Shown in pieces: positions 34,255 through 57,000 of a DNA stretch of 64,000 bases. This DNA is from an uncultured Clostridia bacterium (GTDB lineage Bacteria; Bacillota; Clostridia; Christensenellales; Borkfalkiaceae), in NCBI GenBank assembly GCA_947627575.1, contig CANQWN010000001.1, positions 62,001 to 126,000 on the forward strand. The letters are read 5' to 3'. Made by a program: the position numbers and the translations under genes. The notes below the pieces were generated by a model. That model was not told where the DNA came from and did no database searches. It saw only the letters and a list, made by a program, of their open reading frames with translations. Numbering within the stretch: position 1 is the first letter of the stretch; each line of letters starts with the position of its first letter.

Positions 34255-34388
34255 CTATGTGTCGAATAACGGAATTTTATTTGCCGAAACTGCAAATAAA
34301 AGGTGGCGGAACTGCGTTCCGCCACCTATAAACACGTAATTGCAAATACTTTTCCGCAAATTAGACGAAAATAACCATGGAGGGTAAA

Positions 34389-36542
34389 ATGAAAAATTTC
34401 AAACGCGTACTGTTTTCCCTCCTTGCCGCCGTTATGGTATGTATAATACCTTTCGGCGTCGCCTGTAAAGGTTGCAAGGAAGAAGACAAAAAGCCCGCTA
34501 CTAATTCCGTCTATCTCGCCAATTTGAGAATAGATTCAAGCGCGGCAAAAACCTTATACGATTTGGGTGAAGAGTTCACCTCGGAAGGCTTGGTGGTAAC
34601 GGCGGTAATGTCTGACGAAACCGAAAAAGACGTTACGTCCTCCGCCACGATAGATTCTTCCGCCTATAACAAGGATGCAGTGGGTGAATACCAGATAGGG
34701 GTTACTTACGAGGAAAACAGCGTAATCAAAAACGGCACATACACAGTAACTGTCGAAGATAAAGTTTTATACGACGGTTTGGTTATCAGTTTTGCTGACG
34801 GTTATTCCGATACGGTAGTACTTGACGGCGAAACCACGGCTTCTGTCGATTTAACAAAGATAACTGTTAAGGAGATAAATGAGGACGGCACCGAGGGCGG
34901 CGTTGTAACACCCGATTCCATCAAGGTATATCAGGGCTTGACCGAAAAAACCGCAACCGAAAACGTTGTAAGCGGACTTGCCGAGGGCATCTATCAGATA
35001 GTTGTTGAAAAGCCTTCCGACAGAAACGATGGCTACATGCGTAAGGGTATGCGCAACTTCTATGTTGTGGATAATCTTGATTCCCTCACGCTTGCCGCGG
35101 AAGCTGTAAAAACTCAATCCGCAGGCGCTAACACAATGAAGGCTACGTGGATATTCACCGCAACCTTCACAAGCGGCAAAACGCAGGACGTAACCGAAAA
35201 CGTAACTTACGATCCCGATGTTGACACCAAGAATGTAGGTACAAGAACAACCGTAGCGTCCTATAAGTTTGTAAATGTTAAGGACGAAACAACAACCAAA
35301 ACGGTTTCAATAGAGTATACGATAGAAGAAAATGCGGGTGCAACCGCGATAAGTTGGCTTGTTAGCGATACGGCGCAAGATCCTGAACCTGAAATCAGTA
35401 GCGGAACGGCTATTGAAGATAATGTGCTGTTTAAAGTTACCGCAGAAACAAACGTTAAATACAGCATAGGCAAAAATGCTACTAAAGGTGTAGGTAATAC
35501 AAGTAAGGCTGTAACCGTAACTTTGCAGGACAATTCTTCGCATACTTTCAAACGCGGTATTCAAACAGCGTCCGATACTGCCGGTTCAAGCGACGGCGGT
35601 GTGACGGGCGTTAATTCGGATGCATATATCTTTACAGCCAAACAGGATATTACTTTGCGCCTTTATATGGTATTCTCAAATAGCAGTTTCAACAGCGACA
35701 GACAACACACTTTCACTTATCAAATCAACAGTAACGCTGCAACTACTACCACGAAGTACACAAAGAGACAAGACGCAAATAATTTGCCTGAAATTTCGCT
35801 TAAAGCAAACGATGTCCTTAAAATTTATGCAACCAATTATGCATTTAAACATAATGATGAAACCAGCAGTGATGATCCGCAGGCAGGTAGGCTTTGGCTG
35901 TTCGGTGCGGAAGCTACGGGCGTAGGCGGTACGGCACAAGCCGCATCCAACACGTTTGATTTGGCAGAACTTGAAGCTAATATTTTGGAACGCGTAAAGA
36001 AGTTGTCCACTAACGAAAACCCCAATAACAATAGCGCCCCTTATTACACCGGCGATACGTTGGGCGACAAAATACAGCTTGAAGCCAGCGACTTTGAAGG
36101 CGATAAAAACGGCTTTATAACTTTCTTGACGGCAGGCACAAGTAAGAGTTCTCAATACAGACACGATGCTCAATGCATAGAAATCAAGGGCGACAGGTTG
36201 CAGTTCACCCTTTCCAAACCCGGCACAATAACAATTGTTTGCTCGTCCACCGGCACTAAGGCTGGTAGTAATGAATCCGACATTGCGCTTAAAGACGCAA
36301 GCGGAAGTTATATGACAGCCACAGGCGGAACCGATGCAACTACAACAGGTTATTATACCGTAACCAATACGACAAAAGTTACAATAACGTTTGAAAATTT
36401 GCCGGCGGGGACTTATACGTTGACGGCAGGCACAACTACACACGATAGGGGTGCGCGTATACACGGAATTACTGTTGAAGAAACCGCACCCGCGGCGGCT
36501 TCCGTATCGGTGTTGTACCCTGTAATTATCAAAAAATATTAA
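34389..36542 (+). CDS. Surface lipoprotein with Ig-like domains and a shared C-terminal binding module
   Basis: 717 residues from ATG 34389, which follows GGAGGG; the track's 34377 start lies inside that site. Lipoprotein signal with cleavage at FGVACKGC. Several bacterial Ig-like repeats follow (about residues 40-320; e.g. LYDLGEEFTSEGLVVTAVMSD, GEYQIGVTYEE). Later come two related beta-sandwich modules. The last one (about 540-700), with CIEIKGDRLQFTLSKPGT and ARIHGITV, resembles a module in the 4998-aa protein at its residues ~1053-1218 (CFEIKGEALKFTFKG ... CRISSLSM). Probably binds polysaccharide at the cell surface and works with the pectate lyase 21 bases downstream. Confidence 0.75.
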   Translation: MKNFKRVLFSLLAAVMVCIIPFGVACKGCKEEDKKPATNSVYLANLRIDSSAAKTLYDLGEEFTSEGLVVTAVMSDETEKDVTSSATIDSSAYNKDAVGEYQIGVTYEENSVIKNGTYTVTVEDKVLYDGLVISFADGYSDTVVLDGETTASVDLTKITVKEINEDGTEGGVVTPDSIKVYQGLTEKTATENVVSGLAEGIYQIVVEKPSDRNDGYMRKGMRNFYVVDNLDSLTLAAEAVKTQSAGANTMKATWIFTATFTSGKTQDVTENVTYDPDVDTKNVGTRTTVASYKFVNVKDETTTKTVSIEYTIEENAGATAISWLVSDTAQDPEPEISSGTAIEDNVLFKVTAETNVKYSIGKNATKGVGNTSKAVTVTLQDNSSHTFKRGIQTASDTAGSSDGGVTGVNSDAYIFTAKQDITLRLYMVFSNSSFNSDRQHTFTYQINSNAATTTTKYTKRQDANNLPEISLKANDVLKIYATNYAFKHNDETSSDDPQAGRLWLFGAEATGVGGTAQAASNTFDLAELEANILERVKKLSTNENPNNNSAPYYTGDTLGDKIQLEASDFEGDKNGFITFLTAGTSKSSQYRHDAQCIEIKGDRLQFTLSKPGTITIVCSSTGTKAGSNESDIALKDASGSYMTATGGTDATTTGYYTVTNTTKVTITFENLPAGTYTLTAGTTTHDRGARIHGITVEETAPAAASVSVLYPVIIKKY

Positions 36543-36563
36543 GCGGGGAGGTAATAAAGAATT

Positions 36564-39500
36564 ATGGTTAAAAATAAAAGTAAAAAATTAATTTCGGCTA
36601 TTGCCGCGCTCGCATTATCCGCAACAACCGCGTTCGGCGTTGCGGCGGCGGTAAGAAACAACGGCGTAAATAAGGCAATACCCCAAATGCCCGCCGCGGC
36701 TTTCGCGCAGACGGTTACGGGCGACGTATACTATGTTTCCGCAGACGTTGACCCCGGTGTAGACGGCGAGGTAAACAATCCCGCAAAGCCCTTCCAGTTT
36801 ACAAATCTGGTAGGGCAGGGCAGTAAACTTAAACCCGGCGACGTAGTTGTCGTTCCCACGGGCGATTTCAATACCGACCAAAAGATCGATATCTTGTGTA
36901 ACGGCACATATAACGCTTATATCACTTTTGTAAACGCTTCCTGTTGGGACGCGGCTACCAAAACAATAAGCGAGGAGCCGCCCGAACAAAGCGCAACGTT
37001 AAAATTCTACGAACAGCAATTTGACAGCTCTAACCGCGGCGTAAGGATTATAGGCGACTATATCCGCTGGTACGGCATAGACATTGCAGGCGCGGGCGAT
37101 AACGGTATGCTTATAAACGGCAGTTACAACATAGTTGAATATTGCCAGTTCTATGATAACCGCGATACGGGCTTACAGCTTGCAAGGTTTGAAGAGGCGC
37201 AGACCAACGTAAAGGATTGGCCTCATTACAACCTTATCAAAAACTGCACCTCGTTCAACAACTATGATAACGAAACTTACGGTGAAAATGCCGACGGCTT
37301 TGCGGCAAAACTTACGGTTGGTTACGGCAACGTATTCGACGGCTGTATAGCATACCGCAACTCTGACGACGGTTGGGACTTGTTCGCCAAACCCGAATCG
37401 GGCAGCATAGGCGCGGTTATCCTCTATAACTGCGTGGCGTTTGAAAACGGCTTTATTGCCGAACCGCAAGCTACTTTCAACGCTAAATTCTCTAAATTCA
37501 ATTCCGAAAAAGCCGAACAGAAAACCGATAAAGACGCTTACGGCGACGAAAAGTATACCACCCGTGACGGCGACGGCAACGGCTTCAAGTTGGGCGGCTC
37601 TACAATGGTAGGCGACGTTGTTGTTGTAAACAGCCTTACGTTCCACAACAGAATGCACGGCGTAACCGACAACAGCAACCCCGGCGTTATCCATATCGAA
37701 GGTATAACCTCCTACGATAACGGGCGTGACGTACAGAACGATAAAAACGCCGCAAACTATGGGCAGATTCTTGCAACCGGTTCCGATACGGACAGCGGAC
37801 ACGGCAACGTAGACCTTGCCCGTCAGCTTTACAGCTATAACAACATTATCGATACCCTTTCTGTGAAGAGTTCAAGCGTTACGGGGCTTTCCGCAGACGC
37901 GTACCGCGCTTCCGTAAGGAACAGCTTGTTGGGCACGGGCACCAAGTCCAATGTAGACAAAGCTCACCTTATAGACGGCAAGTTAGACTGCAACACCAAG
38001 GGCGATGTAGACCGTGTTGATAACAGCGGCAACCCCGTATATATAAATATCACCACCGGCACTTCCGACGTAGACGCGCCCGCCCCCGAAGCCGTATTTG
38101 AACAGCTTCCCGTTACGTGGGCTTCAGAACCGGCATCCATAGGTTATGTTTTCTCCGGTAAGGCTAACACCACCGTGCATCAAACTTGCCGCAATGACGA
38201 CGGTTCGATAAATATGGGCAATATCCTTAAAATCAAATCTGATTTTACTTACAATCAGATAGGAGAGGAAAATATAGGCGCGCGCCTTTCCGAAACCAAC
38301 TATGAAGCATATCCTCACTTCAAGATGGATAACAAGTTCACGGGCGACATAGCCAACGCGGAAGCGGCAGTGCTTGACGTAGCTAAAAAGGTTGTTACCA
38401 TAGCTACCGACCTTGACGCAACTTATCAGAACTTCCCCGTGCCTTGCCTTATGGAAAACTGCACGATAGAGTGGGAATCCGCAGATCCCACCGTGCTTGA
38501 AGTAGGCACCGATCAGATTATTTCGTTCTCGCAGACGGTATACAAGACGATAATCGTTCACCGTCAGGCGGACGCGGATAAAACCGTAAAACTTACGGCG
38601 CACATCAGCGTAAACAATTCCACCGTAACGGGCGACGTTGATTTCAACGTAACCGTTATAAAGGCGGATCCCCGCGTAGGGCAGGTAACCGTAGTAACTT
38701 CCAAGGGACAGACCGTAAAGGACGGCGAAAGCATAATTATCGACCAGCACACCGTTATGACCGAACCCGAAGTTGTGGTATATGACGCTTCCAACTATAA
38801 CGGGCTTGTGCTTGATAAAGATTTGTACGATCTGGAAACGGAATATCAGTTTGCGCCTTCGGCTACAAGAACATTTTCCGTAGTTAAGGGCTTCACCCCT
38901 TCCGCGGCGGGCGTATTCAAAATCACCCACACGGCAACCCTTAAAGCCGACCCCACCAACGTGAGGACGATGTCTTACAGCATTTATCCCGCCAGCACCA
39001 CCGACGAAAACGATTTCGGCAACGACGTATCCGTTACCGTAAACCGCGGCGGATTTGCAATTACCGGTACCCCCGGCATAGCAAAGGGCGCTTTGTATGC
39101 GGTATCCGTTGCAGATAAAGATGCGGCAGACGCAATCAACGTAACCAACATTAAGGAAGCGGCAGGCGTTCAAAGATATGATTATGAAGCCAGCTACCTT
39201 GAAAATATTCCTTTCACGCAGGCTAACTCTTCCGCATACTATGTATGCTTTGCGTTGGCTAACACCCACGGCGATATAACTCACGTTCATCAGGCTCAGA
39301 TTTATGTTCAGAACATAACCACCGCCGAAGAATTTATGGACGTTGCAAAGGGTAGCGAAAGCGCGGACGACACTTCGGCTTCAACCATCTACCTGCTTAC
39401 CGGCGATATCGATTTCAGCGGCAAAACCGTAAACGCAAGCGGCTCGTTCAAAGCTCTGCTTAACGGCAACGGGCACACCATAAGCAATATCACCACCACA

Positions 39501-40379
39501 AGCAAGGGCGTGTTCAGCAAGGTTGAAGGCGGCACGATAATGAACCTTAAAGTGGATAAACTCAATATCAATTGCTCCGAACAGAAAGTAGGTTTCGTAT
39601 CCATATGTACGGGTACGGGCGGCACGTTCTACAATATCCAGATGACTAACGTAAATATCAGGGGCGGCCAGCGTACGGGCGGACTTATCGGCGCGATTGA
39701 AAACGGCATTGTCAATATCGAAAAGGTTTCGCTTACCAATCCTCTGGGGGCAACTTCTTTCGACGAAAATGGTTATTATATCGCTTCCGACACGGCGGCG
39801 CGCGTCGGCGGACTTGTAGGCTTCTCGCAGGCTAATTCCGGGTTGTCAAGCGGCGCTATCAAAATCTACTTCAAAGATTGCTACGTAGTATCCGACGTAA
39901 CCGCAAAGGGCGACGTAGGCGGTCTGTTCGCATTGTACGACGCGGGCAACAACGCCAACTGCGAATACCTCCTTCAAATGGATCATTGCTATTATCAGGG
40001 CGAAGTAAGAACGCTTGACAACAGCAACAACAAGTTGGGCGGTATGTTAGGCAACCAGAAGGGTAGTACGGAAACGGCGATTATCGATATCCGCAACTGC
40101 GTATCCCTTGCAGTTCTCAACTATCGCGGCGAAGTGCTTACAAGCTGCGTAAAGAACGGTTCCGGCATAGTCGGCGCGTATGTTGTCGGCAGTCAGGGCG
40201 TATACGATTGTATCGCGCTTATGGACGAACACAACAGCGACTTCGGCGTAACGGCATACATTATCGATAATGTAAAGGCTGAAACGTTCACCGGTCTCGG
40301 CTTCACGGGCGAAACGTGGAGCGCGGTTGAAAACGGCGCGTTGCGTTCACCGTTCATAAAACTTAATTTTGCGGGTTAA
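36564..40379 (+). CDS. Secreted pectate lyase-like protein (PL9-type right-handed beta-helix) with C-terminal modules
   Basis: 1271 residues, signal peptide at the N-terminus (cleavage probably after AAAFA near residue 49), GGGGAGG site. Residues ~55-440 form a parallel beta-helix with the PL9 signature: NADGFAAKL (Asp244), 24 residues later NSDDGWDLF (Asp268, 269, 272), and GNGFKLGG (Lys342). As I recall the PL9 structure (Pel9A), Asp209/233/234/237 bind calcium and Lys273 is the base. The Asp spacing (24, then DDxxD) is identical; the Lys lies further along because of an insert. After Ig-like segments (~640-960), residues ~985-1200 show GLUG-like repeats. Beta-elimination of polygalacturonate is the expected activity. 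Confidence 0.85.
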   Translation: MVKNKSKKLISAIAALALSATTAFGVAAAVRNNGVNKAIPQMPAAAFAQTVTGDVYYVSADVDPGVDGEVNNPAKPFQFTNLVGQGSKLKPGDVVVVPTGDFNTDQKIDILCNGTYNAYITFVNASCWDAATKTISEEPPEQSATLKFYEQQFDSSNRGVRIIGDYIRWYGIDIAGAGDNGMLINGSYNIVEYCQFYDNRDTGLQLARFEEAQTNVKDWPHYNLIKNCTSFNNYDNETYGENADGFAAKLTVGYGNVFDGCIAYRNSDDGWDLFAKPESGSIGAVILYNCVAFENGFIAEPQATFNAKFSKFNSEKAEQKTDKDAYGDEKYTTRDGDGNGFKLGGSTMVGDVVVVNSLTFHNRMHGVTDNSNPGVIHIEGITSYDNGRDVQNDKNAANYGQILATGSDTDSGHGNVDLARQLYSYNNIIDTLSVKSSSVTGLSADAYRASVRNSLLGTGTKSNVDKAHLIDGKLDCNTKGDVDRVDNSGNPVYINITTGTSDVDAPAPEAVFEQLPVTWASEPASIGYVFSGKANTTVHQTCRNDDGSINMGNILKIKSDFTYNQIGEENIGARLSETNYEAYPHFKMDNKFTGDIANAEAAVLDVAKKVVTIATDLDATYQNFPVPCLMENCTIEWESADPTVLEVGTDQIISFSQTVYKTIIVHRQADADKTVKLTAHISVNNSTVTGDVDFNVTVIKADPRVGQVTVVTSKGQTVKDGESIIIDQHTVMTEPEVVVYDASNYNGLVLDKDLYDLETEYQFAPSATRTFSVVKGFTPSAAGVFKITHTATLKADPTNVRTMSYSIYPASTTDENDFGNDVSVTVNRGGFAITGTPGIAKGALYAVSVADKDAADAINVTNIKEAAGVQRYDYEASYLENIPFTQANSSAYYVCFALANTHGDITHVHQAQIYVQNITTAEEFMDVAKGSESADDTSASTIYLLTGDIDFSGKTVNASGSFKALLNGNGHTISNITTTSKGVFSKVEGGTIMNLKVDKLNINCSEQKVGFVSICTGTGGTFYNIQMTNVNIRGGQRTGGLIGAIENGIVNIEKVSLTNPLGATSFDENGYYIASDTAARVGGLVGFSQANSGLSSGAIKIYFKDCYVVSDVTAKGDVGGLFALYDAGNNANCEYLLQMDHCYYQGEVRTLDNSNNKLGGMLGNQKGSTETAIIDIRNCVSLAVLNYRGEVLTSCVKNGSGIVGAYVVGSQGVYDCIALMDEHNSDFGVTAYIIDNVKAETFTGLGFTGETWSAVENGALRSPFIKLNFAG

Positions 40380-40398
40380 TTAAACCCACATAACTTTC

Positions 40399-40432
40399 AA
40401 TCCCCCTTGCCTCCGCAAGGGGGATTGTTTTT
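40399..40432 (+). terminator. Terminator after the pectate lyase gene
   Basis: AATCCCCCTTGC/GCAAGGGGGATT with a CTCC loop, then GTTTTT. Confidence 0.9.
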
Positions 40433-40474
40433 GCGGTTTGCGTGCAAAAGGTTTGCCCGCAAACCGCAAATTCC

Positions 40475-40503
40475 TTTACATTGCGCGCGTAAAATGCTAA
40501 AAT
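40475..40503 (+). promoter_or_regulatory. Promoter of the malic enzyme gene
   Basis: TTTACA, 17 bases, TAAAAT with TGC before the -10. Confidence 0.65.
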
Positions 40504-40533
40504 AAATTTATCAACCAAAGGAAGTAAGTTTTA

Positions 40534-41712
40534 ATGAATTACAGAGAACAATCGCTTATAAAACACGCCGAATGGCAGGGCAAGATAGAAACAAAGGTGC
40601 GCGTCCCCGTAGACACGCGCGAACAGCTTTCGCTTGCCTACACGCCCGGCGTTGCGGAACCTTGCCTCGCCATACACGCAGACCCCGAAAAAAGTTTTAC
40701 GCTTACCCGCCGTTGGAACACCGTTCCCGTAATAACCGACGGCACGGCTGTGTTGGGTTTGGGCGATATCGGACCCGAAGCGGGTATGCCCGTAATGGAG
40801 GGCAAGTGCGCGCTTTTCAAGGCTTACGGCGACGTAGACGCTTTTCCCCTCTGCATCCGTTCCAAAGACGTGGAGGAAATTATAAAAACCGTCAAATTGC
40901 TTGCAGGCAGTTTCGGCGGGATAAATCTTGAAGATATTTCCGCGCCCCGTTGCTTCGAGATAGAGCGCAGGCTTAAAGCCGAGCTGGATATCCCCGTATT
41001 TCACGACGACCAGCACGGCACTGCGATAGTTACCGCCGCGGCGCTTTTAAACGCGCTTAAAATAGTTAAAAAACCCTTAAAAACCCTTAAAATAGTTATA
41101 AACGGCGCGGGCGCGGCGGGCATAGCCATTGCCGAATTTTTGTTGGGAATGGGCGTTGAGGACGTAACTATGTGCGCCAGCCGCGGCATTATCTGCGAGG
41201 GCGACCTTACCGTAAACCCCGCCCAGCAAAAAATTGCAAAAGTTACAAACCGCGCGCATTTGAAGGGCAAACTTGCCGACGCAATGGTGGGCGCGGACGT
41301 ATTTATAGGCGTTTCCGTCGCAAACTGCGTCACCCGCGAAATGGTAGCTTCCATGGCGGAAAAAGCCATAGTTTTCACCTGCGCCAATCCCGTGCCGGAA
41401 ATTCCCCGCGCAGAGGCGCTTGCCGCAGGCGCGGCGGTGGTGGGAACGGGCAGTTCGGAATATCCCAATCAGATAAACAACGTGCTTGTGTTCCCCGGGC
41501 TGTTCCGCGGCGCGCTTGACGTGCGCGCCACCACTATAACCCCGCAAATGATGCGCGCGGCGGCGGAGGGCATTGCTTCCTGCGTGCCCGAAGATAAACT
41601 TTCGCCAGAATATATCTTGCCTTACGCCTACGATAAATCCGCGCACGTTGCGGTTGCAAAGGCTGTTTCCGCGGCGGCTATCGCCTGCGGCGTGGCTAAA
41701 ATTTCAAAATAG
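40534..41712 (+). CDS. Malic enzyme (NAD(P)-dependent, oxaloacetate-decarboxylating), short form
   Basis: 392 residues. Substrate and metal motifs: YTPGVAEPC, the catalytic Lys in VMEGKCALFKAYG, EDISAPRCFEIE, FHDDQHGTAIV, then the nucleotide loop INGAGAAGIAIAEFL and FTCANPVPEI. The short bacterial form without the phosphotransacetylase extension. Converts malate to pyruvate and CO2, yielding NAD(P)H. AAAGGAAG site; monocistronic between terminators. Confidence 0.93.
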   Translation: MNYREQSLIKHAEWQGKIETKVRVPVDTREQLSLAYTPGVAEPCLAIHADPEKSFTLTRRWNTVPVITDGTAVLGLGDIGPEAGMPVMEGKCALFKAYGDVDAFPLCIRSKDVEEIIKTVKLLAGSFGGINLEDISAPRCFEIERRLKAELDIPVFHDDQHGTAIVTAAALLNALKIVKKPLKTLKIVINGAGAAGIAIAEFLLGMGVEDVTMCASRGIICEGDLTVNPAQQKIAKVTNRAHLKGKLADAMVGADVFIGVSVANCVTREMVASMAEKAIVFTCANPVPEIPRAEALAAGAAVVGTGSSEYPNQINNVLVFPGLFRGALDVRATTITPQMMRAAAEGIASCVPEDKLSPEYILPYAYDKSAHVAVAKAVSAAAIACGVAKISK

Positions 41713-41994: not shown

Positions 41995-42023
41995 TTGACA
42001 TCTGTCAAAATTGATAGTAAAAT
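41995..42023 (+). promoter_or_regulatory. Promoter of the giant surface-protein gene
   Basis: TTGACA, exactly 17 bases, TAAAAT; start of transcription near 42030. The rest of the 41793-41994 gap is A/T-rich with no recognisable gene. Confidence 0.7.
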
Positions 42024-42077
42024 TAAATTTGGATTATAACCGCAAATCCGCGTTGTTTCACACAATTTAAAAATCGC

Positions 42078-42087
42078 GGGGGGGGGG
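42078..42087 (+). promoter_or_regulatory. Poly-G(10) tract serving as ribosome binding site of the giant gene
   Basis: Ten consecutive G end 7 bases before the TTG start at 42095, where the Shine-Dalgarno sequence must be. A homopolymer of this length slips during replication; gain or loss of Gs would change the ribosome site and its spacing and so tune or switch translation. This is the longest G-run in the window. Confidence 0.8.
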
Positions 42088-42094
42088 TAACAAA

Positions 42095-45000
42095 TTGAAA
42101 TCTCATACAAGAAAACTTTTAATTGCTGTATTAAGCGTTATCTTGTCTGTGTGTTTGTGCAGTGTTATTGCCGTAACTCTTTCCGGGAAGTGGAAAAAGT
42201 CTACATTCAGTCTTGCCGATAGCGTAGAGGCAAGCTACACTTCGGAAAACTTTGTGATAACCGAAGCGGACGATTTTGCATACGAACAGATATCGGGCGA
42301 CGACGGAAAAACTTATACGTTCATAAGCGGCTTTTCCGAAGATTTTAAAAGGTTAAATTTCACCGGTAAAAATTTAAACCAAACAAATCTTAACGCCCAC
42401 AACGTCATTCGCATAAAAATTCCCGAATACGTCCCCGCAGGCATATCCGGCATAGCTGAAGGCTTGCACGTGGATTACGTGCAGGAAAATGCTTTCGGCG
42501 ATTATTTGGGCATAGGCGACGTCAACACCCCGGACGGCGTCTATTGGCAGGTTAAACAGCCGGACGGTTCAAACGATGGTATGTTTACCATAGACAACAC
42601 AAGTAAATATGCCAAAGCCGACGGCAGAACGGCTTCCATCACCGCATTTAACAATAAATGGTTCAATGATGCGAAGCCTTCCACGGTTATTTTGCCTTCG
42701 CCCCTCTGGTACGATGTGAACGACGACGGCGTGATGGATTCCTTCGAGGGGAAATATCCCTTCACCGAAATGATAGGCGATATCAATTTCGGCAGCAGCG
42801 ATTTCTCCGCTTCTTTCGGCAAAAGCGGCAGCGTTAAAAACCTTGTTATATCCTCCGGCGTAAACATTGTTGCGGCAGGCGTGGATAAAGAAGACGGAAC
42901 TACAAAGGTAGAGGACTGCTTACGTAAGTCCACATCGCTTGAAAGCGTTTATTTTGCCACGGGAAGAACGCAGGTTTTGTCCTTATATGCCTTAACTTTT
43001 GAAGATTCGTTCAATCTTAAAAAAGTTACTTTAAGCTCGGGCGTGTTGCTTGCGGACGGCGCGCGGGCTTTTCAGGGTTGCACCGCGCTTTCAAACGTAT
43101 ACATAACCCCCGAACAAAACCCCAACGTAACTTCTTTCTACGTAATAGGCGAGGGAGGCGCGCTGTATACCGACGCGTTCAACTATAAGTATTACGACCG
43201 CGACGGCTTCCGCGAATGGTGGAAGTGGTATGCGGATAATCATACCGCCGTTGAAGAACAAACTTCCGCACCCGTATCTTCAACTTCTTCCGCGGTTTCA
43301 ACCGAACCTCAACCCAACGCCTCGCTTGTTTCACAACAGGTTACTTTTGAAGATAAGGTTATGTCGCCTGCAAGTTACAATACCGACAACAAAGGTTTTG
43401 ATATCCCCGAGGGCAGTGTAGTTGTCGATTTCGGCAACGACGATATTAATACTTCCGACTATGTAGGCGTTACCTTTACCGATATTAACTTTACTGATTC
43501 AGGGGATAATACATTAACGGCTAATAAAGATAACACCATATCGGTGAATTTTGCGTCAAGCGGTGAAGTGGCGTACATAAATCCGAATGACATCAAGTTT
43601 AAAAAAGACAATAAGGCTTCCATCAACGGTAAAGAATATAGCGGCGCGTATCTTATAAGTAAAAACAGTTATTATATGAAGATACACGTTCCCGCAGAGT
43701 TTAACCTTGCCGTATATATTGCTTCAAACGGCCCCAATGAAAGAAATGTGTATTTGCTTGAAAGTGTACCTACTTCTTCACCTTCGTCTGATATTAGCAC
43801 TACGGCGCCTAAAAAGGACGATGCCGCTGCCGCAACAAACACCCTTTTCGGTTTTACCGATACCAAAGGGCTGTTAAAAGCCGATAAGCTGGCGGCAGGC
43901 GATTATTATTTAACGGCTGATGGTGAATCTGTTGTATTTGCCATTGTTATTACGCCGACAAATATTACTCCCAAACCCGCAATTTCAATGGCTTCGTCTG
44001 CAGAAAAAATAGCCCATTCTAAAAACGAGAATGCAACTTTAAACGTAACGGCAAAAAATTTCCCCGAAGGCGCTGACGCATTTGACGTTGCAAACCTTTC
44101 CTATGCGCTTTCCGGGGGCGCGGAAGATTATGTTGAACTTTCGCCCTCTTCGGGTAGTGCAGAAGTTACGCTTTCCTTTAAAGAAAGTTTGTCGGATGAG
44201 CAACTTGCCGCAATGGACGGCAAACAGATTACCGTAACGGCAACCTATTCCGACGCGGATGCGGCGGACGGCGCAATAGAATGTACCGCCACGGCAAAAA
44301 TAACGCTTTTGCGCTATGTTCCGACGGACAGCATTGCGCTTGGCAAACCCGAAACAGATACTTTCCTTTATGACAGCGGGGAGGAACCGCTTACGTTTGA
44401 ACCGTTGTCCGTCACGCTTACAGCCACGGTAACGCCCGTCGGGGGGGGGACTGCCCCCGTGGTATGGCAATCGTCCGATCCCGCCGTAACGGTAGCGGGC
44501 GGGGTTGTTACGCCTACGGGTAAACCTTCGTCCGGTAAAGTTACCATAACCGCCACAAGCGGCGCAAAATCAACTTCCCAAACGTTCACTTTTTCCGATA
44601 AAAACGTAGCGCAGGATATCGCAATCGAAAGCGACAGGATATACGCTATGTATCCCTCCGACAGTGCGCAAGTAACCGTTACGGCGCTTGTTACTATGCC
44701 GTTTGGTTCTTCGTCTCACACTGCCGTAACGTGGGCTTCTTCCAATCCCGACGTTATAGCAAACGATATAGTTGATAGTTATAAAACGGTGGACGGGGTA
44801 GACGTGCATACCGTCAGCCTCACCATATCAGGTTACGGCAGTACGGTAATTTCCGCTTCGGCGCCTTGTGCCGAGGGCGAAAAAACCGTCTACTGCATTG
44901 TCTATGTAGATTCGCCCGTCACAAAGGGCGAGGAACCCGCCGCAAACATTGCGGAACACTTTGTGCGCTATCAAAAACTTGTTTTGTATCCGCCCGCTTA

Positions 45001-48000
45001 CAATGCCGAAACGTTCGACTTCCGTTATCAGTCTACCACGATAATAGGTAACAGCGCGTTCTACGGCACCCAACTTACCGTAATAGACATTCCCGACAGA
45101 ATAAGCAAAATAGAAGATTACGCTTTCCGTTTCTCAAACAATCTGCAAACGGTTTATCTCCCGTCGTCCGCAACATACGGCTCGGCTATTTTCGGTCAGG
45201 AATCAGACGCGGAATATAATAGCACAAGCAGCTATAATTTGGATACAAGTAATACAAAAACATTCAGTTACAGCGAACTTGAAGGAGTGGCAGGCAGTTT
45301 AGGCGACAACGGTGTTTTAAGTCAAACTTATTTCAATACCCCTTCAAATAGCTTTATACAAGTTATCGAGGGTAGCTCTGTTACTTTCAGAACAAGTAAT
45401 TGTTTTGAAATAAAGGGTGAAGCGTTGAAATTCACTTTCAAAGGCACGGGCACGCTTTCTTTAAAGTTCAGCTCTACGGGCGATTCCAACACATCCAACA
45501 TAGGTTTGAAGGGACCCGACGGCAATTTTATAAAGGCTTCAACAACAGGTTCTTCCGTAACCTATCAGGAAACGAACGGTACCGAAGATCCCTTAACCAA
45601 CTATGCGGGTACTTATACCGTCACCGGTACCACCGCCGCGGATATGTCGTATGCAATCACAAAACCCGGCGATTATATCTTGTACAGTAATTATACTCAT
45701 TCAAGCGGTACCCGCGGTTGCCGTATCAGCAGTTTATCTATGACGGATAACGGCGCAACTGCGGAAAAGCAGGCGGTAAATAAAAACGACGTAAAAAATA
45801 CTTACACTGCCGGCAAGGATAACTTTGTTATAATCGCGCCCTCGCGCGAGGCGTTTAAGGATATACTTCTTAACGCCAAATTCGATATGGTTTCAAGCGA
45901 CCCTGGCGGCAATAGTGATAACGACGGTTACAGCTACAGCGGTCATTTGACGTACGAAATAGAGGTAACCTATCAGGTTTACAGCGGCGGCGCGCCCGTG
46001 GCGGGTAAATCCGTTACGCAAACAAAACTTTTCGGTAAACTGGCGAATTTCACAAAGAATACCCAAGACAGCACCATAGTATGGTCAAAGGATTATAACA
46101 ACAACGTAACCGATATGGAATGGGGGCATAAAGTAGATAAGCAGCATATCGTTACCCAAAACCTTTCTTATCCCTCAAGCGAAGAAGGGTGGGATATTGC
46201 CTCCGGCGGTTGGTATATTGATTTTACCGAAGGCGCCGACGAATTCCCCACAACTATAGCCGAAACTCCCGTTTCGCAGTATTTTTACGGGAAGGGCGAA
46301 CTTAAAGAATCCACGGAAGTGGGCGGCGTGCATTACAGCCCCTTAAGCCGTTTCCTTTGCGGCACTTATCCGTTGCCCGAGGGCAGTTACATAGATTCCA
46401 CTACGTACACAAAATACGAAGGCACCTCCTATAAGAAAGACTCGATAACTTTCTATATGTTGCCGTATTTCTTGACGATAACGGGTATTGAAGATACCGA
46501 AAATCCTATTTACAGCACCTATGTAAACGCGCCTTTGTTCCAAAATCTTTCCACGCCCATTATGGGCGGCACAATGCCCACAATGTATGTGGAATTCGAC
46601 TTCGCGGGTTATCCCATAAGCCGTTTCCTTTCCGGTTACGACGCGGCGAGAATGACTGCGCAAATAGAATCTTTCAAACCCTATTACGATAGTAAGGATA
46701 GGCAGCCTTATACCGATTTAAACGCCGTCAACGAAAATGAAAGACCCACTTTAAACGGCAACGCATACGACGTGGGCACCTACATAATAGCGGTAAACGT
46801 TAATGAAAAATACAGTTGGCAGGGCGTATACAACAATGCGCGTATAACCCACGATACCATGCTTGAAGGGGTAAAGGTATCCGGTAACGATAAGGACGTT
46901 TTGCGGTTCGAGCTGATAATAACCCCTCGCCGCGTATCCGTTCCGGGCGAAAGTTTTGTAACTTCCGCTTCCTATACGGGCGCCGACGTAAGCATTTTTG
47001 AAAATCAGGCGTTCTATTCCGTAGAGGAATATCTGCCTTTCGGCCGCTCTGCCGACGGAAACCTTGTAACGCCCGGCACTTCGCAATACGAAAGTTCCAC
47101 AAAGATAAAGTTAAGCGAAAATAACAGACCTTTCGATATAGGCAGTTATTACACCTATCTTAAACTTTTCGACGATAAGTATACGGGCGAAACGCAAACC
47201 CCCAACCTGTATTGGGATCCCGAACCTACCGAATACGATAGCGGGCACGAAGGTTCGGTAAGGGTACAGCTTAACATAAGCGATAACCCCAAACTTGCTC
47301 CGCCTACATTACAGCACCCCGACGCAACGATATCACTGCACGGCAGCAGGGCTGTTATTACGTATACGGGCAATGAATTTACGCCCGAACAGCTGTTTGG
47401 TTCGTCCTATACGGACTACAATATGCAGTTCAAAGTGCGCGATTACAAGAAGATGGACGCCAACACGTTCAGCAACGCTACCATAGTGCTTAACGCGGGC
47501 ACGTATCACGTTGATGTAACGCCCGCCGCCGGTTACGAATGGCGTTCGGGCAGTACCCACAACAGTGAAATTATTTCCGCAACTGCAACTTTAACTTTTG
47601 AAATTGTTGTGGAAAAGTTGCCCGTCAACTCCCCCGCAGACCAGTATATAATTATGGACGGAAACCCGCCTTATCCTTACGAGGTACATTCCGGCGAGGT
47701 TTACAGCCTGCTTACTTATCAAAAATTGCAGGTAGAAAAAGACGGCACACTCGTCCTTGACGGAGATGGCAATCCCGTTCCCGAAGTCGGCAAATCGCCT
47801 TCCGCAGAAGCTCCTACGGAAGCCGGCGCATATTGGGTTACGCTTGATTTAAAGGATAAGGACAATTACGAGTGGTTGGCAACCGGCAAAACGGATGGGA
47901 TACATTCCATTTTGTACGTCCTTGAAAACGGCGCTATCCCCGTGCCCGTATTCAAAAAATTGGGTACGATAAACGAAAATACAATCACCCTTTCGTACGA

Positions 48001-51000
48001 TCCCGCCATATCCAACTACGGGTTAAGCGACTTGTTCAACAACTATCTGCCCGGCTTGCAGACGGGGTTGGTGGCGGAAGGCAGAATAGAGGGCGGAATT
48101 AAAAAGGACGCTCCTTCGTCTGTCGCCAACTCGGTTGTAATTAAAAACGCGGGTACCTACACGGTAACTTTCTATACAAGCGAATATTTCACTCAAGATA
48201 GCGAACCTGCCGAAGATCACACCAACCGGACGTGGTGGGCGGACGATTCAACCCACAAAGATTATCAATCCGCAAAAACTTTCTATGTGGTTATCGAACC
48301 CATAAAAGTTGAAGCTACCGACGAAACCGCGCCTTTAAGCGAAGGTTCGGTTACATATGCCGTTTCCACGGGGTATAGGGTAGTAGGCTATCAGAAGTAC
48401 GATAAAGGTTCTTCGCAGTTCACCACCCCGATAACGGAAGTGGGTAAATATTGGGTTGAACTTAAACTTGTAAGCAGTAACTACGCGTGGGCTTCAAGCA
48501 CGGGCGTGAATGAAGCGGGCAATAAAGTTGTGCTGTTCACCGTCACGGGCGAAATAGTAAACGCGCCCACGTTCCGCAATACGGTTTCCGTGTTGGGAAG
48601 CGACAAAGATTCTTTCAGTCAGATTATTTTCGATGAAAGCGACCCGTACAACCTCGGGCTTATAATAAACGACGAACAGCAGTTCAAAAATGCAAAGTAT
48701 GACCTCAATCGTGTGCTGGATTACGGCTCTGTAATACCCAACAGCGTAATACAGTACAATGCAAAGGCTGCCGATAAGATAAAAATCACTTTGGGCACCG
48801 GCGAAGAATATAACGGCGAAGTGCTTGAGGAATTGCGGACGTACAAGGTTGTATTTACCCTGCCGCAAAGCGAGTGGGAAAGCGGTAATCTGCTTTGGTC
48901 CAATTCCCCCGAACAATCGCTTACGTACACGGTTGTCGTAACCTCTTCAATTGTAGCCGCACCCGACTTTATTGATAAAGTTTACACATCCGAAGAGATA
49001 AGCGCGGAAGAGTTCTTAAAAACCGATAAGGATGCCAACTTGTCCGTCAGCCTTGTGGAAGGTTCGTATATCCCTTACGAAGGCGGAATCACTTCCGAAA
49101 ATATCGTTAACGCCGGCACTTACAGCCTGCTTGTTACGGCTATAAACAATTCGGTACTTTCAGGCGCCAAAGACAAATTCGGCGCCACGCAGGTAACGCT
49201 TACTTCTTACGTGATACCCGTAAAGGTAAACGCCGCAACCATAAACGTTTCGCTTGAATTTGAGGGCGGCAATGTTTACAGCGGAGCCGAAAAGTCGGTA
49301 ACAGCGTCGTTTACGGGCGTTTTGGGCGGCGCTACGCTTGCCAAAGATTCCGATTATACCATAGATGCTGTCGCGGCGGCTTCAAAAGAGGGTAAAAACG
49401 CCTTTAAGGATGTAGAAGGCGGCGGCGTTAAGGCTACGCTTATATTAAAGGAAGGTTCTGCCGCGCGCAACAATTATAGATTCGGTACGCCTGCCGAAGG
49501 TTACGAACGTACGCAAAATACCACCGACGGGCACAAAGGCATAACGCGCAATTTACTTGCCATAACCCCTTATGCGCTTACAATAAGCGGCACGGCAACA
49601 GCTTCAAACGTAACTTACGACGGTTCAAATAAAGATTTCACCGTCACCGCAGATAAAAACGGCACAAGCGGGCTTACGCTTAACGCGTTGGGCTCCGACG
49701 AAGTTTCCGCAGAAATAAAATTCACCACAACAGCTTCCGACGTAGGCGAATATAAGTATTCCGAAGACAAACTTACCGCAAGCGTAACAAGCAGCGATAT
49801 AGGCGAAAACTATACCTTTGACGAAAGTTTGTCCGGTGCGGTATTAGAGGCTTCGATAACCATCGACCCCGCAAAGGCTTCCTCTATAGAATGGAAAGTG
49901 GATAATAACGACCTTACGGACGGAGATTCGCTTGCGGACGGGTATCAGTACGTCTACAACGGCAAAACGCGCAACGTCGCCGCAGAAGCGCGGTGGGCGG
50001 GAGGTACAGTGCCTCTTTCGCTTACGGGGGCTACCTCTTTCATCGATATAAAAACATCCGCGGAAAAAGACGGCAAATATACTTTCACCGTAGAAGAACT
50101 TACGGGCAACGTAGTGTTTGGCGAAGAAGTAAGCAATAAGTCGATAACCGTGCAGGTAACGCCTTATACGCTTAACGTTGAAACCAGATACAGCACAACG
50201 TGGTATTATAACGAAGCCAAAACTTCAATAACGGCAGAACGCGCTATCAACAGTACGTCTACGCCGAAGACGTTGAAAGCGGACGAAACGGCTGTGATAA
50301 CCTTTACGTTCACCACCCAAAGCGCAAATAAGGGCGTTTACGGTAAGGATAGCGGTCTTTCGGTATCTGCGGTAATAGACAATATCAACTACAAGATAGG
50401 CGAAATAACTTACAATGACGCTAACATACAAATAGAGGCGGCGCCGCTTACAGTTGGGCTTACAAGCGCAGAAGCGCCCTACATAGGCTATAAAGCCGCC
50501 ACCGAAAATTATTACGGCGGCGACGGCGAAGATAAGGGGATTGACGTATCGCTTACCGTTTCGGAAGAAAGCGCAACTTCAACCGTGCCTTCCTACACGT
50601 TGTCCTATGCCGCCGACGGCGCGGGCAACGAGTACACCCGCTCGATTGAGGGCGGCAAAATGATAAACGCAGGCGCTTACAAGGTTACCGTAACCATTTC
50701 GGACGATAACTACGAAATTACAAGCGCAAGCGGCGGCACTATTGCCCCGGACGGAATGTCCTCCGAATTTGGGTTCACCGTAAATAAAGTTAATATTTCC
50801 GCCAAACTTGTCAAAAACGACGGCGTAAGCGATGGAGAGGACGACGACAACGGTGTTATCACGTTCACCTACAACGGCAAGGACAGAAAGAATGACGTAA
50901 AGGCGCAGTTCACCCTTGCGGGGACGGACGTTACTACCGATGTGAACAATGAATTTATCATAGGTTACTTCGCCACCGCGTCGGGAAGCGGTTCCTCTGC

Positions 51001-54000
51001 CGATGTTATAAATTGCGGCGCATATTATGCGCGTGCAACCCTCAATGGCAGGGCGTTAAACAATTACACTATCGTACGCGCTTCGGGTAACCTCACCAGC
51101 CAAATCGTGATAGAGGAAGCGCGCATAACCATTTCGGGCGAATTGAACCTCACTTCGCTCGAAGCCGAAACACAGCAGGCGCTTGCGGAATATCTTACAT
51201 ATTCCAACAAGTTAAAGACCATCGCGCTTACCACATACGACCTTTCCACCATGGGCGTTGACGAAAAGGGCGGCGAGGGCGCAGGAAGCAGTACGCACAG
51301 GTACTTCTATCTTCCCCTTAAAGAGGGCGTAAACGGCGTAACCGCCGCCGACGGCGTTATAACGGCTTACGGGCTTACCATCAGTAATTATTACGGCGAG
51401 TTGGGCGTAACCACAAACGACGTGTTCTCCGTAATGTTTACGTCCAGCGCGGTTACTGCGGCAACGTATAACTTTACGCATACGGGAAATTATGCGGAGG
51501 GTCAAAGCTCGGCGTATGCCAACATTGCGGAAAACGCTTCCGATAACTTCAAAGCCAACTATAAGGATACCGACAAGGACGATTTCAGCGACGCCGACTT
51601 CCTTGAAGGGTTTAAGGCTTCCTTCCAGATTACAAAGCGCGAAGTGGAAGTTAAGTGGAGCTATACAGGCGAAGCCCACGGTACAACCGAGGGGTATAGC
51701 TGGACGTTCACGTTTAACGGCGCGGATTACAAGGACGAGGTAACCGCAAAGATAGAAAGCGAGTATCTCACTTCCGGCAGTTATACTTTCGCAAGCATAT
51801 CCGTAACAAAGGAAAGCGAAGCGGCGGATAGCGTTATTGAAAGCGGCACATATAAATTTACCGTTGCCGATACAACCAACTACAAAATGAAGGCAGGCAC
51901 CGCCGAACTTACCTTTGTAGTAGAAAAGTACACCGTACAGCAGACCGATCTCGACGCATTTGCGGAAGCGTGGGAAAACGAAACTTCCAACGTTGCCCTT
52001 GCGGACAGACAGCTTGACGGCGAGGGTGAATTGCTTAAAAACTCGTTTGCGAGAAAGCGCGAAGCCGCCGCCGAAATTAAATATCAGCAGTCCGTTGTCA
52101 ACGCCGCGAAGATAGGCGAATATCCTATGTTCACCATTTCGTACGAGGGCAACAACCAAAGCGAAGTGAACGGCAAGGAAAATCCTTACAGCGCAACCGC
52201 AACATTCACTTTAAATTCAAACTTCAAGTGGGCGGATAGCTATACCGTAATAGCCAACCATGAAAGCACTTCCATTGTGGAAGGCGTGCTTAAAGTGGTA
52301 AAGCAGTGGTATATAATAGAATTTACCAACGGCTATGTATGGAACGCCGCCACAACGTGGGTATACGGCAGTACCGTATCGTTTGATGAACCGCAAGCCG
52401 AAGTAAATCCTTCCGGTTCAGACAGGATTTCTTACCAACTTTCGTGGTCGTTTAACGGAAGCGGAACGCTTTCAGCGAATGCGGGCAGTCTTTCGGAATT
52501 GCTTAATTCTTCCACGCCCGCAGGTACTTACCGCCTTACAATAACCGTAAACGAAACCGATTACGAATTACAGCATTACGACAAATATTCCGATACCGTA
52601 ACAATTACCGTAAATGCGGCTTCCGTTACGTCCGTTTCGGTAAACTATAACGGCGAAAGCGAATTTACGTACGTCTACAACGGCAAGGTACAGCTTCCTT
52701 CCAAAGCGGCGTTCACTGTTACTTATCCAACCGTAACCCGCAGCGGCAAATGGGCGGATAGCGCGTATGATTCCTACTACGATCAGACGTATGAAGTAGG
52801 TTTCAGCAACGACGACGCAGGCACCGATTACGACTACACCGCAACTTGGGCGGCAGGTCCCAAAACGGTAAAAGCGGATGGCGCGTACACCCTTTACTAC
52901 AACATAAGGACGGCTAAAAACTTCGCGTCGTATTCCAATGCGGGCAACGCTGAACAACACCATGTCAGCGTTACCATAACCCCGCGTCCGCTTGTATTCC
53001 ACGCACAACCCGCCACGGAAAGCAGTAAAGTTTCGGGCAGCAATCTGGATATGAAGTGGACTTATTCCACAAGCAAACCCGGGCGTTCTGATTTTGACAT
53101 AGGTTTCCCGTCGGATGGGGTTATAGAAGGGGACGAAGTGTATTTCGCGTATAAGTTCCTTACGCGTAATGACCAATCGTCTACCTCTTACGGCGGCAAT
53201 ACGCAGGCTGATTTCGGACCGAATAACATTCCCAACGACGCGGGCGAATATATCTGTCGCTTCACGCTGTTCAACGACGGCGCTTACCTCAACTACAAGA
53301 TAAGCAACGGCGCGGGCGGAGACAGCCACGTAGACGCAAACGTCACAATAGAAAGGGCTGATTCGGCGGTAAATCCCACGGATAAACGCGTGGATTACAC
53401 CGGCTCTGCGGCAATATATCCCGAAGAGAGGTACACAGATATAGTTTACGCCGAGGATGCCGCGGCGCGCGTTAATGTAACAGATACGGGTTACGGCGTA
53501 TACTTAACCCTTTCCAATAAAAACTACAAGTGGAGGGACGATTTACAGACATATACCCATTCCGACAACGAAAAACTTACAGAAGGGTACGAATATGTGC
53601 TTGTAAAACTTTTCGTCGACCCGATCAGCCTTACGATTAAAGTAAGCGATTACAACAGCGTAGCTTACGATACAAGATCGCATACGGTAAACGTATCCGC
53701 CGATAACGACATAAGCGAAGAACTTACGTTGGGTGAAGATTTTACCGTAACTTACAAACTCGGCGACGACGCAACGTCCATGGTAGACGCAGGCACGTAT
53801 ACGGTGCTGATAACCTTGCTTAACAATAACTTCCGTATCAAAGCCGTGCAGGACGAGGATAGTTCCGCAGACCTCACGTCAAGCGGTTGGGTAATCGACG
53901 GAACCGAAAAGACGGTTACCGGAAGTTACAATATTGAAAAGGCTATCGTAAGCGTAAACAAGAGGGCGGGCAACGATCATGCCCATCCTTACATAGGCGA

Positions 54001-57000
54001 AGATTACGCTTCGTCTGAACATAATTTCTTCAGCACGCATTATACGGTAGACATTCGCAACAACGGCGCTTTGCAGGCAAGCAATTACAACGTAACGTAC
54101 GACGAAGCGGTAACTCACGAAACAAAACTTATAAACGTCGGCGTATATACGATAACCGTTACGCTTACGGATGGCGCTTTCAAAAATTACAGCTTTGCAG
54201 CAGGTGAAAGAAGCGACAGCGGCAACACCGTCGAAATTACCGCCGCTACGGTAGCCGACCTCGGAAGCCACGAACAGGGCATAACAGTAAACGATTCCGA
54301 TAGCTTCGTATACGACGGCACCGACCAAAGCGGAAAAGTTTCCGTAACGTTCAACAACGATTTGCTTAATTCCACCGTAAGGACGATGGCTACGGGCGGC
54401 AAAACGCCGTACACGCTTACGTTCGATTCGGGTTCGGCGTTCGAGGACGCAAAAACTTATACGCTTAAAGTTACGTTAAGCAGCGAACTTGCCCGCAACT
54501 TCTCGTTTGCAAGCGGTCCCGATAAGGAACAGAGCGCAACCACGCAGATAGAGATGAAACCCTACATAGTTACGTCGGCTGATTTGGAAATAAGTCCGTA
54601 CGTTTACACGGGCGAATCGCAAGGCGATGTTTCCGATATTTCGGTTACGTTTAATTACGGCTCGTCTTGCGGCATAGCTTCCGAAAAGCGCATAGACGAA
54701 GACGGATATACGCTTTCGTTTGTGCAAGCAAGCCGCATAAACGCGGGTACATACGGCGTAAAGGTTACGCTTACCAACCAGAACTATGCGTTCGGTACTT
54801 TAAGCGGCGGGGCATATAACCGCGAATATACCGATAATTCGGCAATGGTAATATCCAAAGCCACCGTAAGTTTCGGCGTAGAGGCAAGGTACTATAAAGC
54901 GGAAGCGCAATCTTACACCGCGGAAGATATAGTATTCGTTATTCCCGAATCCGTGTCGGGAAGCGCGCCCAAGCCCGAAATTTCAAGGGTAACGCATTAC
55001 GATAAGATTCAGATGGCTACCGAAAGCGGTGATTACGGTTCCACGTATTGGATTGAAGTTACATTGCGCGACGGCAACTATCAGTTTGAAGGCAATGTTC
55101 TTACAAGCAGAATTTCGGGCGGAGACAAGATTGTAATTCTTCCCGTAGAGGTGGAACTTGCGGTTCAAACTTCCTATAATTACAACGGAAGCGTTCAAAG
55201 CATCATAGGCACCGGTCCGGAATTCGAGGAAAGAAATTCGCCGTTCAAAAAGGTTACGCCGGGCGCGGCGGAGGAAACGGTTCCACGCTATCATCACGAA
55301 GCCGCGCATGAAAGCAATTATTCCGGTTATACCGTAACTTATCTCGGTTTAAGCGGCGCGGCGACGGGCAGAAGCGAAATGCGCGCAACCGGCAGATACA
55401 GCGTAACAATTACCCTCGGCGAATACACCGCAAACAACTTCGATATAAAACTTCCCGCAGGCGGCACCGCCGACGAGATAACGTTTGAAGTGGAAGTTAT
55501 CGGCGTAGACATAGTTTCGATACGTTGGGATCATTCTTCAAGCTATACCTACAGCGGCATAAGCCTTTTAACGGCAAATTCCAAGTTCGGTATAGATACA
55601 ACGTTAAAAGCGTACGGCAGGCTTGAAACGGGCTCTGAAATACCTCTCGAATTCACAAGCCTCGGCAAAACAAGCGGCGACACTACGTTCACGCAAGCCG
55701 ACGTACATACCTTTACCGCAAAAATCCCCGCAGGTTCGGGCGACGGATATTCTTTCGCGGCTGATTGCAGAGATTTGACGATAGATATCGAAGTAAAGCC
55801 CAATAGGGTTGTCGCGGAAATTACGGGCGCTACCGAAGTGGTTTACGACGGCGATTCGCACAGCCTTGACGTTAAGGTTTACTACATATATCCCGGCGAC
55901 GGGCAGAAGTATTATCTCAACGAGGGTATAGGGTTCGAGGTTGAAGGCAACGATATAAGCGACGTTGGCACGGCGCAGATAGTTGTAACCCTGCTTAATG
56001 ACCCCGTAGGAAATCATTACAACGCAAGGAACTTCCGTTTCGGCAATAACCAAATTTATATCGAGAGAACGTTGACCGTTACTCCCGCAGAGATAACTGC
56101 CGTCGATTGGTATGTTGACGGCGACGAGGCTTTGTCAAGCTACGTTTACGACGGCGAAACCCATTCGGTAACCGCCTACGGACATTGGGGCGAAGGTTCG
56201 TTGGATGAACTTACGCTCGATCTGGCGCAATTCCTCAACGTCCTTGCGGAAGGTTATACGTTTACCGCTCAAAGCGGCGGCAACTTCATATTTGCCGAAG
56301 GGGTAAGCAACACGTTTACATTGCAGGTAAGCAAGGCTACGCCCGTCATAGGCGGCGCGGCAGACTGGTTTGCGGAATACGACGGAACGGCAAAAACCGC
56401 TACGTATAACGTTCCCGATTATGTTGATAAGTCAACGGTTACCGTAACTTATCAGGGCGAAGCGCAGGCGGTAAACGCTGGCGAATACAGCGTGGTGATA
56501 ACCATACCGGAATCCGCCAACTATGTTTCCGCAAGCGTTACCGTAAAACTTACGATAAACAAAGTTACGCTTTCCGTGCAGTGGGATGAAAACACCGAAT
56601 TCGATCTTGACGGCACAAAATTAACGCCTTACCTCGGCGTGGATAAAACTCAATGGGCGGATAAGGTAAGCCTTGTCTACAAAACCGCGCAGGGCGAAAC
56701 CTTGGCTTCCGCGCCTACCGAAGAGGGTGAATACACCGTAACCGTCGTTTTGACGGACAGCGTAAACTTCGCGCTCGAAGGGGCGGAAAGTAAATCGTTC
56801 AGTTTGTTCCGCGTAACCCCGCCCGACTCTGGCGACAGCGGAGACAGCGGCGATGAGGGAGACGGCGGAGACAGCGGCGATATCGGCGATAATGGCGATA
56901 TCGGCGGAATAGGCGACATAGGTGGAGAAAGCGACGGCGGTTCAACGCATTTGTGGCTTATTATATCGCTTTCCGTTGTACTTGCCGCAGAGATTGCGGT

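Follow-up and report, generated by a model that had tools for sequence, protein, structure and literature searches.

A probable phase-variable set of poly-G tracts in cell-envelope genes of an uncultured Clostridia bacterium and its order

To our knowledge, most known cases of homopolymer-based phase variation come from Gram-negative pathogens, as well as from mycoplasmas, and the switches reported for gut Clostridia are DNA inversions. The poly-G tract of Moraxella catarrhalis uspA1 lies upstream of the gene. Tracts of 8-10 G at this site are accompanied by low mRNA and those of 11-12 G by high mRNA (PMC7302503). In Neisseria meningitidis, phase variation through poly-G or poly-C runs in the promoter spacer is established for porA, fetA and opc (PMC2791445). 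Frame switches by intragenic G or C homopolymers are described for Campylobacter, Helicobacter and Neisseria in three further papers (PMC8355987, PMC2823697, PMC3786947). Gut bacteria, including Clostridioides difficile, vary phase by means of invertible promoters; the 2025 review that covers phase variation mentions the Clostridioides inversions and does not contain the word "homopolymeric" (PMC11868660). Our search of non-subscription papers returned no report on phase variation for Christensenellales or for pectinases.

The window, that is the whole stretch of 64,000 nucleotides analysed here (G000:C1:62001-126000), belongs to a draft genome of 1.59 Mb in 11 contigs, 97% complete, of an uncultured Clostridia bacterium. 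It contains a giant surface-protein gene with two long poly-G tracts, which are likely to be contingency (phase-variable) sites within a genome-wide slippery poly-G set that controls cell-envelope genes. We infer the slippage, its reversibility and its effects on expression from direct observations, namely tract positions, their excess, the gene classes involved, frame-broken genes and the statistics of promoter spacers.

Two tracts in a giant surface-protein gene

The gene comprises the following features, given in window positions.

41995 to 42023, plus strand: promoter of the giant gene, TTGACA, 17 bp, TAAAAT, read directly
42078 to 42087, plus strand: G10 tract, filling the Shine-Dalgarno position, 7 nt 5' of the TTG start
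42095 to 57091, plus strand: open reading frame of the giant surface protein, TTG start, 4,998 aa
44441 to 44449, plus strand: G9 coding tract, GGG GGG GGG, Gly783-785

The original prediction had located a G10 at the expected Shine-Dalgarno site of this gene and a G9 in codons 783-785, with no other such G-run in the window. This is exactly what the window holds, the two tracts being its sole runs of G or C of at least 7 in 64 kb. The protein has an N-terminal signal peptide, LRR_5, Ig-like/MBG-type repeats and a C-terminal transmembrane anchor; Pfam finds LRR_5 at residues 980-1064 (1.2e-11), with aBig_2 and MBG_3 slightly below the cut-off. N-terminal homologues were present in 3 of 40 sampled same-genus genomes (34-40% identity). 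TTGACA...TATAAT-like sequences in the homologues from three sister species line up with the -35/-10 of the gene. Its promoter spacer is a normal 17 bp with no tract, which sets it apart from promoters of the porA/opc type. Directly upstream, at 34377-41712, three genes run in the same direction (a 721-aa lipoprotein, a 1,271-aa secreted protein and one further gene), and none of the three contains a long G tract.

Because the promoter lies at 41995-42023, the G10 falls within the 5' UTR, between the transcription start inferred from this promoter and the start codon. A placement of the G10 inside the coding region via an upstream start codon was rejected: none is open, and an in-frame stop stands at 42068. 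The homologues of the three sister species carry AGGGGG, CAGGGGG and GGAGGGG at the same place, followed by an ATG start, and both window tracts are absent from them; as their Shine-Dalgarno sequences hold just G4-G5, the G10 is lineage-specific. We read it as an expanded (over-extended) Shine-Dalgarno sequence.

That the length of this tract tunes translation, as had been proposed, appears doubtful. The 3' end of the G10 is fixed 7 nt from the start, so that changes in length leave the spacing unaltered. The predicted duplex with a generic anti-Shine-Dalgarno sequence is -11.5 kcal/mol at G10 and stays between -11.4 and -11.5 kcal/mol when the tract has 8-14 G; the accessibility predicted for the start codon varies with tract length with no clear trend near 10 G. 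The flat predicted duplex energy from 8 G upwards and the trendless accessibility speak against graded translation via Shine-Dalgarno length; a graded effect via mRNA structure or non-productive registers is possible but not supported. Whatever its exact length around 10, the tract should sustain translation and would have no more than a modulating effect, through mRNA structure or unproductive pairing registers.

Among the same-genus genomes, G8+ runs stand 4-11 nt before ATGAA at 21 sites versus 4 in a backwards control, and about half of these sites stand before what look like real genes, response regulators and lipoproteins among them. G8-9 runs occupy the Shine-Dalgarno position of two response regulators and a DtxR-like regulator in sister species (L089, L092, L100; identities from sequence alone), by which whole regulons could become phase variable.

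The giant protein contains just two Gly-Gly-Gly tripeptides, and GGG makes up 14% of Gly codons. The coding G9 encodes one of the two tripeptides and is in frame. Neighbouring lengths at 44441 run into an early stop, and the predicted products measure 797-809 aa, with the signal peptide retained but no anchor. Slipped-strand mispairing in replication would add or remove one G, shift the frame and cause a stop near residue 800, at the cost of the ~4,200 remaining residues and the membrane anchor. Since one base more or less would cut the protein to ~800 aa and remove its anchor, a switch at the G9 between on and off, or between anchored and released, is credible. The truncation foreseen in the original prediction is supported at the level of the reading frame, where any change not divisible by 3 is predicted to stop the protein at ~800 aa; of its model of graded plus on/off control, the on/off half is supported and the graded tuning by the G10 is doubtful.

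Long G runs across the genome

Exact G runs of 7, 8, 9, 10 and 11 or more nucleotides occur 13, 2, 8, 3 and 0 times in the genome; a chance tail would not fall at 8 and rise again at 9. Extrapolation of the decay of run lengths 3-6 gives ~0.94 expected runs of at least 9, compared with 11 seen (~12-fold; Poisson p ~5e-9). As in contingency loci, a homopolymer longer than chance stands where a change of one base is predicted to alter the product, as at the G9 of the giant gene. The presence of two tracts within one 15-kb gene is in itself unsurprising, with ~0.5 such pairs expected among 11 tracts. The contexts of the other tracts were assigned by eye, a codon-score classifier being too strict close to gene starts.

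C1:1408: coding tract in membrane protein L041
C1:353480: C9 coding tract (C-strand) in lipoprotein L042 (gene L042:9609-13880), with List_Bact (Listeria-Bacteroides) repeats, pectate lyase and CBM77
C1:366241: coding tract in large repeat protein L043
C2:66804: G9 coding tract in ATP-grasp enzyme L044
L044:833-16891, minus strand: capsule-type polysaccharide cluster that contains this ATP-grasp gene
C3:141846: coding tract in lipoprotein L045, frame-broken
C4:12152: coding tract in lipoprotein L046 (LRR_5 x12), frame-broken
C5:83230: coding tract in lipoprotein L050 (2,240 aa), immediately after the lipobox cysteine
C4:46647: poly-G in the promoter spacer (13 bp) of GT4 glycosyltransferase L047
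C5:48665: G10 in the promoter spacer (18 bp) of pectinesterase lipoprotein L049 (gene L049:8625-12329)
C5:30136: long G run in a terminator-like stem
C1:7530: long G run in a non-coding repeat

Eight tracts of the genome are coding, nearly all of them in cell-envelope genes, and six of the eight are in frame, as in ordinary coding sequence. The neighbours of the ATP-grasp gene, named by N-terminal sequence only, include a flippase as well as dTDP-sugar, UDP-glucose dehydrogenase-like and glycosyltransferase genes. In L045 and L046 the frame is lost exactly at the G9/G10 tract in the assembly; both genes have a clear start, Shine-Dalgarno sequence and signal peptide, and 787 and 1,527 codons, respectively, are open in another frame behind the tract. 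They look like off-phase copies, although either one by itself could result from an assembly error or from a mutation that became fixed recently. The two promoters of L047 and L049 carry their tract between -35 and -10, the arrangement of porA and opc. L042 and L049 are both pectin-degrading lipoproteins, for which random switching of nutrient harvest is possible.

Poly-G promoters across the order

Promoters of this kind were searched for with the pattern TTGAC-...G7+...-TATAAT in 93 same-genus genomes and with G8+ in 396 genomes of the order, each time with a backwards control. The genus yielded 19 matches versus 0 in the control. In the order, ~184 poly-G promoters (a total summed by hand from the per-genome table) were found in 67 genomes and 25 genera, again versus 0; they belong mainly to families f1, f19, f32, f28 and f3, with hardly any in f4, f6, f11, f24 and f31. 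Among the matches listed, G9 is the commonest tract (87 of 137 distinct sites), and C-runs were seen in only one promoter among the loci examined. At two orthologous promoters the tract differs in length at the same site: G9 in L069 and G10 in L076 for an ABC ATPase, G9 in L077 and G10 in L079 for a membrane protein.

The spacers of these promoters avoid 17 bp. The 137 distinct sites among the matches listed include 16 spacers of 15 bp, 37 of 16 bp, 7 of 17 bp, 24 of 18 bp and 21 of 19 bp, whereas T8 spacers found by the same search in the same genomes measure 17 bp in 108 of 150 cases (72%; p 1e-34, sites of shared ancestry all counted), as do 59 of 79 ordinary TTGACA...TATAAT promoters of this genome (p 1e-27 versus poly-G). 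The dip recurs within families, with 10, 0 and 9 spacers of 16, 17 and 18 bp in f1, 9, 2 and 9 in f19, and 17, 4 and 6 in f32.

Behind 40 sampled order-wide promoters lie 20 lipoproteins and 7 other proteins with a signal peptide or transmembrane segment, versus 2 and 4 among the 39 genes of the window (Fisher 8e-6 and 3e-6), under a simple hydropathy and lipobox rule and with one window of one species as background. Surface targets, as expected of contingency loci, prevail order-wide (27/40 versus 6/39), and nearly all target genes of this genome are of this kind. Lipoproteins with collagen-like GxQGxQ/GKDG repeats follow poly-G promoters in L218, L229 and L234, and another such lipoprotein (L047:64-2787) lies near one.

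The idea that every long G run in the genus is a switch was rejected. In G006, G014 and G016 many such runs belong to intergenic repeats or hairpins, and most of their G9+ runs lie in intergenic repeats, so that length alone does not mark a G run as a switch. In G006 and G014 these dispersed repeats take the forms CTTCTTCCCCCAAT-G9-AAGCTCCCGCGTAGCGGG... and CAATATT-G9-TGGGACAAAAT (for example in L193-L196, L136, L142 and L144); they are possibly mobile or REP-like elements.

The window tracts might be ordinary sequence, the G10 merely a strong Shine-Dalgarno sequence and the G9 a chance Gly-Gly-Gly, neither of them variable. Both do work as they stand, with the Shine-Dalgarno at the right distance and the frame open, the homologues have G4-G5 at the same site, and two tracts in a 15-kb gene are not improbable given 11 in the genome. 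The jump of run lengths to 9-10 past the deficit at 8, the excess at 9 and above, the location of tracts in envelope genes and promoter spacers, and the two genes broken exactly there make this explanation improbable. Homopolymers of at least 9 bases can make RNA polymerase slip, and the G9, which has such a length and is in frame in the DNA, could in this way yield full-length and truncated protein in a fixed ratio from the same DNA, with no heritable switching. Transcriptional slippage leaves unexplained the promoter-spacer tracts, the length differences between orthologous promoters and the DNA-level frame breaks of L045 and L046, and we consider it quite improbable. Very unlikely, finally, is that assembly or sequencing artefacts made or lengthened the runs and caused both frame breaks: homopolymer errors are possible in MAG assemblies such as these, and poly-G artefacts occur at contig ends in some relatives (G020), but the window tracts lie in the middle of a 418-kb contig, tract positions coincide with functional sites, and the backwards control is empty. 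Moreover, if the spacers were truly 17 bp and the errors random, 17 should be the commonest length, yet it is the minimum between 16 and 18.

A different explanation concerns the spacers alone. G-tract DNA is A-like, and if its twist and rise displace the optimum of poly-G promoters from 17 bp, the missing 17-bp class would reflect geometry and imply no off default. The classes indeed differ, as spacers whose tract abuts the -10 peak at 18 bp and the others at 16 and 19 bp. A shifted optimum would, however, give one displaced peak, not the peaks on both sides of 17 found in f1, f19 and f32; we regard geometry as a less likely but real possibility. The simplest reading of the two peaks, which neither noise about 17 bp nor a changed optimum would give, is that the assemblies capture, for the most part, a majority state that lies 1-2 bases off the optimum, weak or off by default. 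In this genome outside the giant gene, and in the order, the main design would hence be a poly-G run between -35 and -10 in which a change of one base moves the promoter on or off the 17-bp optimum. The original prediction of phase variation by slippage is well supported by the genome-wide and order-wide pattern and is likely correct. For the order as a whole we lean, with some reserve, towards the view that poly-G tracts in sigma-A spacers, Shine-Dalgarno sites and coding regions are the main random-switch system for lipoproteins, capsule genes and pectin-degrading enzymes, and that the promoters evolved such that with the commonest tract, G9, the spacer misses the optimum of 17 bp by a single base, which leaves them weak by default but able to reach full strength in one slip.

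Comparison with described switching systems

The main value of these observations lies in the order-wide poly-G repertoire that includes the giant gene. If the reading is true, isogenic populations would be mixtures with respect to surface proteins, capsule and pectin use, and assembled genomes would misreport which genes are on. Through the avoidance of 17 bp, default-off switching would be recognisable quantitatively at the level of assemblies, independently of the giant gene. The kind of system is known, and its lineage, extent and off-17 spacing appear to be new.

The promoters of L047 and L049 and the ~184 of the order resemble meningococcal porA, fetA and opc in having a homopolymer between -35 and -10 in front of surface proteins (PMC2791445). 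They differ in belonging to uncultured gut Clostridia, in the many loci per order, in serving mostly lipoproteins and in spacers that avoid 17 bp; the giant gene itself has a normal 17-bp promoter. It shares with Moraxella uspA1, which encodes an adhesin, a poly-G run of similar length and a large surface protein (PMC7302503), but uspA1 is affected at the mRNA level, whereas in the giant gene the run itself constitutes the Shine-Dalgarno sequence and the coding region contains another tract. The coding tracts resemble the frame switches of Campylobacter, Helicobacter and Neisseria in being G/C homopolymers of surface genes, several per genome, in which a one-base change stops the protein; the phylum is another, the gene measures 15 kb, and the predicted truncated product is a released N-terminal part of ~800 aa. 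Like the invertible promoters of gut bacteria (PMC11868660), the poly-G tracts would switch surface and nutrient genes at random. Those promoters depend on DNA inversion and recombinases, whereas the tracts would switch through a change in length for which a recombinase is unnecessary.
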